A DNA stretch of 64,000 nucleotides from assembly GCA_023544565.1 (NCBI GenBank), contig JAMJFS010000007.1, forward strand, positions 1 to 64,000. Direction: 5' to 3'. Position numbers and translations under genes: made by a program. This stretch comes from Methanosarcinaceae archaeon (GTDB lineage Archaea; Halobacteriota; Methanosarcinia; Methanosarcinales; Methanosarcinaceae). Of this stretch, positions 6,000 to 56,845 are shown piece after piece (the stretch's first letter is position 1; each line of letters starts with the position of its first letter). The notes under the pieces are model-generated. The model did no database searches. It saw only the letters and a program-made list of their open reading frames with translations, and was not told where the DNA came from.

Positions 6000-6003
6000 T
6001 CAA

Positions 6004-6064
6004 CAAGAAAATTTTCGCTGACGCTCGGATTGACTCTAATTATATATTAATAACATATATATTA
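6004..6064 (-). repeat. Degenerate single copy of the two-hairpin repeat
   Basis: Read on the minus strand this has the family order: AT-rich hairpin, AGAGTC, AATCC, GA, GC, loop GTCA, GC, GA, AAATT, TT, CTTG. The inner GC/GC stem and GA/GA loop are kept, but two pairs of the AATCC stem are lost. It sits immediately after acylphosphatase. Confidence 0.65.
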
Positions 6065-22832: not shown

Positions 22833-23253
22833 GTTTTTAGTCTCGTTTTTTAGAGTCTATATGGATTGATTTGTATTAATTATAACGTTTCGCGTTTAGA
22901 GTTTAACGTTTCGTATTTATATAGATGTGATGAGATCGCTGCATAAATTATATTGTTCGATTTGAAACTAAAACCAATACAACCGCCATAGGCGGCGCAT
23001 TCCCACACCACTGCCCTCGTAATATGGACTTTTCTGACAGTCTTTTGTAAGATTGCGTACTTCGAATTTATGCGACAATAATTCATTATTTTTTCGTTTA
23101 GGAGGGAAAGTGCCGCCTAAGGCGGATTGTTTTGGCATCAAAAATAACTAAATAAATACAAAGTTTCAATAGTGTTGGTGAATGCTAATGGGCAAAACAT
23201 AATAAAGGAATCTGGCATTACTATGCACAAATCACAATAATAGGTGTTTAAAA
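22833..23253. other. 420-bp intergenic region with GC palindromes and direct repeats
   Basis: No convincing gene. It holds two short direct repeats of AACGTTTCG (22884 and 22904), two GC palindromes in AT-rich DNA (CCGCC ATA GGCGG at 22983-22995, and CCGCC TAA GGCGG at 23114-23126 inside GTGCCGCC), and the mdh leader with GGTG before the ATG. The regulatory role is unproven. Confidence 0.6.
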
Positions 23254-24267: not shown

Positions 24268-24537
24268 ATGCGCGCAGAGATCACATCATTATTTGGATTG
24301 AACGTTTATACTGACGTTGGAACATACATAGGAAAAGTCAGCGACCTTATACTTGATGCAAATGGCCGAAAAGTTAGCGGGCTTGCTGTTTCAGACATTA
24401 ATCGTGAGGTATTTGATGTTCCTACAAAAGGTATTATAATACCGTATAGATGGGTTGTGACAACCGGCGATATTGTAATTATCAGGGATGTTGTGAAAAA
24501 ATTCAGTCCTCCTAAAAAGGTGGAAGAAGAATATTAA
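24268..24537 (+). CDS. PRC-barrel domain protein
   Basis: An 89-aa protein consisting of one PRC-barrel (LFGLNVYTDVGTYIGKVSDL, then IIIPYRWVVTTGDIVII) with a short charged tail. Archaeal stand-alone PRC-barrel proteins are abundant. Some are linked to CdpB-type cell division proteins, others to RNA metabolism. I cannot assign this one. A copy of the two-hairpin repeat begins at the base after its stop codon. Confidence 0.88.
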   Translation: MRAEITSLFGLNVYTDVGTYIGKVSDLILDANGRKVSGLAVSDINREVFDVPTKGIIIPYRWVVTTGDIVIIRDVVKKFSPPKKVEEEY

Positions 24538-24600
24538 CGAGAAAATTCACCCATATGGTTGAATTAACTCGAACGATATAATTCATAAATTAACTATACT
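24538..24600 (-). repeat. Single copy of the two-hairpin repeat filling the PRC-barrel/thg1 gap
   Basis: On the minus strand the order is AT-rich hairpin, CGAG, TT, AATTC, AACC, loop ATAT, GGGT, GAATT, TT, CTCG. The outer CGAG/CTCG and the AATTC/GAATT stem are perfect. The usual GA/GA loop is replaced by AA opposite GT. It begins one base after one stop codon and ends one base before the next ATG. Confidence 0.85.
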
Positions 24601-25326: not shown

Positions 25327-25349
25327 GGTTTTCAAACGAATTACACATT

Positions 25350-25452
25350 AAATTATACTTACAATTAAACTTATACTTACAATTAAACTTAAACTTACAA
25401 TTAAACTTAAACTTACAATTAAACTTAAACTTACAATTAAACTTAAACTTAC
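25350..25452. repeat. 18-bp tandem repeat, five full units plus a partial
   Basis: Unit AATTAAACTTAAACTTAC is repeated five times from 25363 to 25452. The first unit differs at one base, and a partial unit precedes it. It lies between thg1 and tyrS, 27 bp before the tyrS start. It looks like a slippage-prone array and could alter promoter or leader length. Confidence 0.92.
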
Positions 25453-25478
25453 AATACAGTTACACAAGCGGTGAATTA

Positions 25479-27829: not shown

Positions 27830-28570
27830 ATGAATACTTCTAAATGGTATAAAATATTTGGTATATCACTGATCGTAATATCAGCAGCCGTGTATTTCAT
27901 TCATTATCTGGTGTTTCATGATATACATCATATTTTCATTTATTTTTTGGGAGACATTGCATTTGTTCCGATTGAAGTACTGATGGTGACCTTGATCTTA
28001 CATCAATTATTGACATATATGGAAAAACGAAATATGCTGGAAAAATTGAATATGGTCATTGGAGTATTTTTCAGCGAAATAGGAACAAAGTTTTTATGTT
28101 TTTTATCCGATTTTGATCCCGATCTTGATGCTGTCAGAAATGAACTTGTTGTGACAAACGATTGGAACGATGAGGATTTTTTGTACACTAAAAAACGTTT
28201 AAAAAATTATAATTATTCTGTTGATATTCGGAATATCGATCTGGTAAAACTTAGAACTTTACTTGGTGAAAATAGAAATATATTAGTTCGTTTGCTTGAA
28301 AATCCTACTTTGTTGGAGCATGAATCCTTTACTGAACTTCTAAGAGCAGTCTTCCATCTGCTTGAAGAATTAGTCGCCAGAGGTGACCTGGAAGATCTTC
28401 CAGATACTGATCTTGATCACATTTCCGGTGACATTGGAAGAGTTTATGGTCTACTTGTTGATGAGTGGCTGGATTATATGCAACATTTGAAGAATAATTA
28501 TCCATATCTGTTTTCGCTTTCCATGAGGACGAATCCCTTTGATACATCCGCTTCACCTGTGGTAAAATGA
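27830..28570 (+). CDS. Conserved membrane protein of unknown function (246 aa)
   Basis: The N-terminus has two helices (about residues 9-27 and 36-58) joined by HYLVFHDIHHIFIYFLGD. A long cytoplasmic helical domain follows, with conserved-looking blocks MVIGVFFSEIGT, LLENPTLLEHESFTELL and NYPYLFSLSMRTNPFD. I recall similar proteins in methanogens and bacteria, all uncharacterised. The three histidines between the helices could bind metal. Its 3' end has been duplicated into a tandem repeat. Confidence 0.75.
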   Translation: MNTSKWYKIFGISLIVISAAVYFIHYLVFHDIHHIFIYFLGDIAFVPIEVLMVTLILHQLLTYMEKRNMLEKLNMVIGVFFSEIGTKFLCFLSDFDPDLDAVRNELVVTNDWNDEDFLYTKKRLKNYNYSVDIRNIDLVKLRTLLGENRNILVRLLENPTLLEHESFTELLRAVFHLLEELVARGDLEDLPDTDLDHISGDIGRVYGLLVDEWLDYMQHLKNNYPYLFSLSMRTNPFDTSASPVVK

Positions 28571-28635
28571 TTCGGTACATTCACTTAACCCTTGGTAAAA
28601 TGATTTGGTACATCCACTTAACCCTTGGTTAAGTG
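28561..28635 (+). repeat. 33-bp direct repeat derived from a gene 3' end, ending in a hairpin
   Basis: The unit starting GGTAAAATGATTCGGTACAT occurs at 28561-28593 and 28594-28626 with two differences, then partially again. The first unit contains the stop codon of the upstream gene. CACTTAACC (28615-28623), CTT and GGTTAAGTG (28627-28635) make a perfect 9-bp hairpin between this gene and the convergent lhr. Confidence 0.85.
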
Positions 28636-28652
28636 ATTCGGTGGAGAGATCA

Positions 28653-32788: not shown

Positions 32789-32996
32789 AATTACAATTCC
32801 AATAGTGTTTTTATGAGTTATATTATTTATGGCAATTAAATAATATGATAGTTATATATATGCGTGGAAGTGATGCGAAAAGTTATTATCAAATTGGTTT
32901 AAAACTCTATTTAGTTAATCTCAATATAGGGGACATTTTTTATTACAATACAAGAAACATTCTGGAATTCCAATAATTTCGTGGTGGTCACTGACA

Positions 32997-33120
32997 CGAG
33001 AAAATTCTTCCTTCGGTCGAATTGACTCGGACTATATAATCTATAAATTATATACTACAAGAAAATGCTCACTTCGTTCGCATTAACTTGGACTACATAA
33101 TCCTATAGATTATATACAAG
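32997..33120 (-). repeat. Two tandem copies of the two-hairpin repeat (array C)
   Basis: Two inverted-orientation copies of about 61 bp. On the minus strand copy 1 has CGAG, TC, AATTC, GA, CC, GAA, GG, AA, GAATT, TT, CTCG. Copy 2 has CAAG, TT, AATGC, GA, AC, GAA, GT, GA, GCATT, TT, CTTG. Three stem segments change on both strands together between copies. Their AT-rich hairpins also keep pairing (TATATAAT/ATTATATA, and TATATAATC/GATTATGTA). Confidence 0.9.
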
Positions 33121-33133
33121 AACAAAACCTGCA

Positions 33134-40334: not shown

Positions 40335-40375
40335 TTACATTTACATTTACAATTACAATTACAATTACAATTTTA
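40335..40375. repeat. Hexamer tandem repeat (TTTACA/ATTACA)
   Basis: A run of six-base units, ACATTT or ACAATT, repeated about six times, lies 60 bp before the iorA start. It is a simple-sequence tract in the leader or promoter region. Confidence 0.8.
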
Positions 40376-56508: not shown

Positions 56509-56534
56509 TGTCACTAAACTGACATTATTTTTTT
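56506..56534 (+). terminator. Intrinsic terminator-like hairpin after uL15
   Basis: TAATGTCA (56506-56513), a six-base loop and TGACATTA (56520-56527) form a perfect 8-bp stem, followed by seven T (56528-56534). The first three bases are the uL15 stop codon. Confidence 0.75.
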
Positions 56535-56537
56535 ATA

Positions 56538-56715
56538 GTATATATTTTGTGAATATATAGTTAGAGTTAATTCGACCGAAGGGAGAATTTTCTCGTGGTA
56601 TATATTTTGTGAATACATAGTTAGAGTTAATTCGACCGAAGGGAGAATTTTCTCGTGGTATATATTTTGTAAATATATAGTGCGAGTTAATCCGAGCATA
56701 GCGAGGATTTTCACG
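56538..56715 (+). repeat. Three tandem copies of the two-hairpin repeat (array D)
   Basis: Copies 1 and 2 are nearly identical 60-bp units: AT-rich hairpin, TAGAGTT, AATTC, GA, CC, GAA, GG, GA, GAATT, TT, CTC. Copy 3 has CGAGTT, AATCC, GA, GC, ATA, GC, GA, GGATT. All pairs of the second hairpin are kept in each while the bases differ. The array lies between the uL15 terminator and secY. Confidence 0.92.
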
Positions 56716-56845
56716 TTAATACTATATTGTTATATATATTTTGAACATCATTATATCAAAAATGAGGATGAGATAAATTCGGAACTGATATATTGGTTGG
56801 TTCAAATTAGTCATTTATTGATGTATCATATAAAAGGGTGAGTTA

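Follow-up and report, generated by a model that had tools for sequence, protein, structure and literature searches.

Transposons of the IS91 family lack inverted repeats, do not duplicate their target and insert at GTTC or CTTG (PMC6052338), and their transposase reportedly works in trans, with one-ended transposition giving rise to miniature derivatives and with a stem-loop at the terminus (PMC3189936). Fragments of IS801 of 229-679 nt are able to transpose (PMC3189936, PMC6052338). The PATEs of Haloquadratum are transposase-free, high-copy elements derived from IS605 that carry near-terminal palindromes and leave no target duplication; they include terminal-only 52-bp forms, and other miniature elements insert into their palindrome (PMC3119063). 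REP and REPIN sequences, which go with the Y1 protein RAYT, are short intergenic hairpins present in hundreds of copies with subfamilies and follow a single-strand HUH logic, REPINs being inverted pairs that bear a GTAG tag. Gene-less copies with a 3' hairpin and no target duplication are also characteristic of the non-autonomous Helitrons (e.g. DINE-1), rolling-circle relatives that are eukaryotic, use a RepHel enzyme and have a CTRR end lying between A and T.

The repeat described here, found in a 64-kb window (the whole stretch of DNA analyzed), compares most closely with the IS91 family (IS91, IS801, IS1294, ISCR), with which it shares the lack of terminal inverted repeats and of target duplication, a terminal stem-loop, CTTG/GTTC-type tetranucleotides at its end and at a minority of its targets, and a Y2/HUH transposase in its autonomous relative. 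Unlike IS91 derivatives, it is an archaeal, uniform 60-nt unit of two hairpins with no coding remnant, which reaches more than 100 copies per genome, forms tandem arrays and has mostly T-run-NAT targets. It resembles the PATEs in being transposase-free and high-copy, in its near-terminal palindromes, in the lack of duplication and in the insertion of other miniature elements into the palindrome, but PATE ends are like those of IS605-type transposons whereas its own ends are of the IS91 type and its arrays run head-to-tail. With REP sequences it shares short intergenic hairpins, subfamilies, a REP-like copy number and presumably the single-strand HUH logic. Compared to REPINs, it forms direct tandems, has no conserved GTAG tag and carries the ends of a Y2-transposase element. 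We regard the repeat as probably a non-autonomous, gene-less miniature element of the IS91 type (HUH, Y2, rolling-circle).

The two-hairpin repeat and its distribution

Ten units occur at five places in the window, as the original prediction had proposed, and are listed here with their targets where these could be assigned.

1-58, + strand: repeat unit at the contig start, first in an array of 3, 3' end shortened (62.4 bits)
57-116, + strand: unit 2 of the contig-start array (77.8 bits)
115-174, + strand: unit 3 of the contig-start array (81.3 bits)
6003-6063, - strand: single unit adjoining the stop codon of an ORF that, from reading its sequence, we take to be acylphosphatase-like (65.7 bits)
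24537-24598, - strand: single unit (model match) between two ORFs, presumably PRC-barrel-like and Thg1-like, as read from their sequences
32996-33056, - strand: downstream unit of a doublet (78.7 bits)
33057-33118, - strand: upstream unit of the doublet (70.4 bits)
33119-33127, - strand: insertion target TTTTGTTCT of the doublet, from the empty-site comparison
56528-56536, + strand: insertion target TTTTTTTAT before an array
56537-56596, + strand: unit 1, with hairpin H1 at 56537-56561, hairpin H2 at 56562-56596 and the end CTCGT (86.4 bits)
56597-56656, + strand: unit 2 (84.2 bits)
56657-56716, + strand: unit 3, of the other H2 subfamily (81.6 bits)

The window also contains simple tandem repeats at 25341-25455 (18 bases), 28543-28642 (33) and 40335-40372 (6), and a sequence of about 180-260 bases at 22903-23169 with many matches of roughly 70-86% identity in sister genomes, which is another dispersed repeat.

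A covariance model built from the ten units found 144 copies at 111 sites or arrays of the host genome, far beyond chance, after removal of one antisense echo; this count and the host-genome analysis cover the stretches around model matches, 369 kb in total. Searching the whole host genome with this model gave at least 148 copies at E < 0.001, the E-values being rough and one repeat model calibrated. Among the matches listed genome-wide there are 86 single units, 25 doublets and 4 triplets; tandem copies always run head-to-tail with a period of 56-63 bases, and location is mostly intergenic, with 102 of the 111 arrays free of ORF overlap. The repeat breaks assemblies at many contig ends.

Each unit consists of H1 followed by H2, starts directly behind a T-run, ends in CTYG(T) and has no terminal inverted repeats in its sequence. 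The proposal of a dispersed repeat with covarying stems is borne out for both hairpins. Of the stem cells in 142 distinct rows, 94.1% are paired, compared to 82.3% after shuffling, and pairing falls to 38-58% when the partner is slid by 1-3 columns. Stem cells changed on both sides number 203 against 67 in shuffles, although these counts overstate independent events because many of the double-sided changes are shared by descent within a few subfamilies. For H1, 658 of 816 cells are Watson-Crick pairs (shuffles: mean 577, maximum 601). Of 141 distinct copies, 115 retain the GA/GA internal loop. The predicted TT/TT loop is not general, being present in 49 of the 141; the 5' side at this position reads TC in 64, TT in 55 and TA in 20, and in genome G049 one subfamily has base pairs there. 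An apical loop of 3 bases had been predicted, and it holds for part of the copies only, as loops of 4 nt also occur (GAA, GTCA, AAA, GTTA, ATA). The original prediction knew of no described family with this build, and an Rfam search of the window at gathering score returned only tRNAs and no match to the repeat.

SecY places the host genome with the ANME-3 records HMMV ANME3_22, HMMV2 and CSMAG_2493 at 92-94% identity, and its bin (G000; 1.78 Mb, 72 contigs, 92.5% complete) represents an ANME-3-like, methane-consuming archaeon. All six genomes of the same genus carry 34-149 scored copies each, and no repeat was seen in 16 of 18 sampled genomes from other genera of the host's family. Among 160 Methanosarcinales genomes, 19 have matches: those of the host genus, 14 of a second family (f2), and three elsewhere with one match each. 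The named members of f2 are 'Methanosarcinales archaeon' MAGs, e.g. CSMAG_1931 and SMBSF02; their copies have the T-run, hairpins and tandems seen in ANME-3, and one genome (G028) has 48 of them. Identical units are found at unrelated loci of different genomes. Lone hairpins with the repeat core (AATGCGAACGAAGTGAGCATT), lacking H1 and the T-run, were seen at L303, L304 and L305 of G049, one of them at the 3' end of an ORF.

Insertion sites and tandem arrays

Units sit directly behind T-rich targets (TTTTTNAT, TTTTCTTGT, TTTTGTTCT) regardless of gene direction. The T-run upstream of the unit is equally strong where the upstream gene lies in sense (32 sites) and in antisense (41 sites), so it is not that gene's own terminator. 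Among about 95 first-unit targets the tetranucleotide is CTTG in 11 and GTTC in 5, the remainder being mostly T-run-NAT. CTTG and GTTC are reported targets of IS1294 (PMC6052338), and their reverse complements are two of the targets of IS801 (PMC3189936).

The doublet at 32996-33118 is missing from two sister genomes (L248/L249), which have a precise empty site, TTTTGTCC|TGTCAGTGA. Where the window reads TTTTGTTCT, two units and GTCAGTGA, the empty-site relatives read TTTTGTCCT|GTCAGTGA, with no target duplication on comparison of the filled and empty sites. The doublet interrupts a conserved ORF, which is continuous again once the flanks are joined. G028 of family f2 has a single unit at the same nucleotide of the orthologous ORF (L037), yet G001 and G002, which are closer to the host, are empty, a distribution most simply read as separate insertions at one target. 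This is the one clean empty site; several other orthologous sites (L184) are too diverged to read. The site at 24537-24598 is filled in three sister genomes and lacks the unit in G005, and the L15-secY site is filled in all five ANME-3 genomes seen, with 1, 1, 2, 3 and 3 units drawn from various subfamilies.

In 73% of 33 adjacent pairs the two units come from different subfamilies, and neighbors barely exceed random copies in similarity (77% vs 74%), which argues for stacking or joint mobilization and mostly against local duplication or slippage. Two subfamilies recur in the same order inside doublets of several arrays, which may reflect movement as a dimer.

Other small elements accompany the units. 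One of about 115 bp, bounded by the inverted ends TATAGAGGCTGTCC/TAACAAT, repeatedly interrupts the AT-rich hairpin of the repeat (e.g. L180:1801, L197:1972, L199:1801, L206:1801, L217:1974), much like the small elements that attack PATE palindromes in Haloquadratum. Units at L209, L211, L163 and L164 contain or adjoin a further dispersed repeat, whose ends resemble GACACTGT.CCA and AATAACTGGA.TTTGG.

IS91-type relatives and a proposed route of mobilization

Six of seven same-genus genomes, and none of 14 controls, have matches to the IS91 transposase domain PF04986, most of these matches being fragments; an IS91-type Y2 transposase also occurs in the f2 genome G049. The proteins score 246-264 bits against the NCBIfam model for IS91 (NF033538; cut-off 125), combine the domains Zn_Tnp_IS91 (PF14319) and Y2_Tnp (PF04986), and have invariant HxH and YxxxY motifs among the relatives. 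Autonomous elements start with TGTATATAATCTATAACTTTTCGTAC directly behind TTCTTTTTTAT or TTTTTTCATTTT (L363 and L353, two copies in G111), and the ANME-3 element of G005 starts with TGTATATAATTTATAAC behind TTTTCTCGT (L342); they end in TTTGCACCCGAAGGGTGCTTTCTTG, beyond which the flanks diverge. Like the repeat, the IS91 element starts with TGTATATAATCTATAA and is inserted behind the same T-run. The f2 repeat reads TGTATATAATCTATAAGATTATGTAC...GACCGAAGGGAGGATTTTCTTG; its first 16 bases are identical to the autonomous left end, and GTAC recurs at the same offset in both, the left-end matches between repeat and IS91 lying in AT-rich sequence. The right ends have in common a C-GAA-G hairpin head and a TTTCTTG tail but differ in the sequence of the hairpin stem. 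A second autonomous subfamily has the left end CGTATAGGAAAGTATAAACGCAT, which matches that of the miniature repeats in a second set (L042, L043, L053); the copies of family f4 read TGTATAGGAAAGTATAAACGCAT (L042). Repeats and IS91 elements also abut each other: an IS91 element starts right behind a repeat unit at L342, and a unit starts right behind an IS91 right end at L335.

A 25-mer of the IS91 right end gave 29 matches in 10 of 18 genomes and its reversed control none. One genome of family f3 (G060) has 13 right ends, apparently an expansion of the autonomous element. The reverse strand of L366 carries, at about 1420-1490 and directly before an IS91-type element, a tandem of 31-nt units composed of an IS91 left end plus TTTTCTTG or TTTTCTTGA. 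The transposases of an ANME-3 genome (L335) and of a different genus (G111, L363) are 84% identical, which suggests recent transfer.

Neither the IS91 transposase nor its right end was found in the host bin at 92.5% completeness, and G028 gave no PF04986 match despite its 48 copies. Across the 160 genomes the transposase is present in 4 of 19 with the repeat and 15 of 141 others, with no clear co-occurrence, so the link between enzyme and repeat rests on the matching ends and targets. Partial model matches, followed as a route to an autonomous copy, proved to be unrelated miniature elements and isolated core hairpins.

On this comparison, the unit would be little more than the two ends of an IS91-type element, with H1 (AGTATATG... 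or TGTATATAATCTATAA...) as the AT-rich left end; H2, a hairpin that has a C-GAA-G-like head and runs into TTTTCTTG or TTTTCTCG, would be the right end. An autonomous relative would provide in trans an IS91-family transposase, which would recognize the folded ends as single strands and cut at the CTTG-like end, and by a rolling-circle route through a single-strand intermediate the copy would be joined directly behind a T-rich target resembling that end, with no target duplication. Since the 3' end of the unit (TTTTCTYG) itself resembles the target, new units would land behind old ones and build head-to-tail arrays; alternatively, read-through may move several units at once. The published traits of the IS91 family account for the anatomy of the repeat.

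Weighing the other explanations

The original prediction had pointed to selection on an RNA or single-stranded DNA fold, and of these the fold itself stands and the DNA option is favored. That the unit works as RNA, as a processing signal or as an L7Ae/kink-turn site in 3' or 5' untranslated regions, is very improbable in our view, even with a stable RNA fold (z about -4), covariation and the conserved GA/GA loop; the unit folds as RNA and as DNA, so energy does not decide. Units point both ways relative to genes, antisense being somewhat more frequent (37 antisense pairs against 21 sense, with 19 convergent and 13 divergent), and GU (54) and AC (43) mismatches occur in similar numbers, which indicates no strand preference. 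The lack of an Rfam match, the precise insertion and the T-runs, as common on the antisense as on the sense side, likewise speak against an RNA role, and the processing signal finds no support. Nor does the suggested kink-turn: the internal loop is a symmetric 2x2 with no 3-nt bulge beside the GA pairs, and the related IS91 end has ordinary pairs (AC/GT in GCACCCGAAGGGTGC) at the GA/GA positions, consistent with a plain hairpin stem. A test of replication strand that used orientation blocks along contigs gave no significant signal (44/78, p 0.14). Many units are placed 0-60 bases away from a stop codon and behind a T-run, and some right behind tRNA-like 3' ends, as would be expected of transcription terminators multiplied in place; we give this equally little credence, as the T-runs are equal on the antisense side, identical units occur at unrelated loci in different genomes and an empty site exists. 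At some sites the unit may serve secondarily as a terminator.

The evidence favors the REP/MITE-like mobile nature that had been raised as one option, which leaves the question of the enzyme. If an IS200/IS605-type Y1 transposase did the moving, the unit would be a PATE- or REP-like element, which would also have near-terminal palindromes and insert 3' of a short target with no duplication; the anatomy is that of haloarchaeal PATEs, including the small elements inserted in the palindrome (PMC3119063), and a single intact Y1 gene is present in the host bin (L238). We nevertheless consider this reading unlikely. The ends of the Y1 element (AATACTTTCAC... and GGCCTTGGACTTAAGTCCGGGGTATAGTGACT) differ from those of the unit, none being common to both, and Y1 TnpA was rejected as the mobilizer on that ground; TnpB/IS605 was rejected as it is absent from most of the genomes examined. 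G003, with 149 copies at 83% completeness, has no PF01797 match, and a published survey found in archaea only IS200-type Y1 proteins and none of the REP type (PMC6006769). No RAYT gene is flanked by repeats, the nearest unit to any Y1 locus being about 1.4 kb off in one case, and no transposase family recurs among the genes neighboring arrays.

An IS91-type origin names a likely engine for a high-copy archaeal repeat. A search of the open-access literature found no high-copy miniature IS91 element in archaea, which is weak evidence of novelty, and a search with the motif letters returned nothing relevant. The occurrence of the repeat in both ANME-3 and another seep-associated family, together with the similarity of IS91 transposases across genera, suggests gene flow. 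We see about an even chance that ANME archaea have a genome-wide, REP-like system in which an IS91/rolling-circle transposase takes the place of a Y1 RAYT, with self-stacking 60-nt elements, T-run targets at gene ends and passage between ANME lineages. Such a system would be a third HUH route to genome-wide small palindromic repeats, after IS605-PATE and RAYT-REP, and the repeat offers a ready substrate for testing how IS91-type elements choose their ends and targets.
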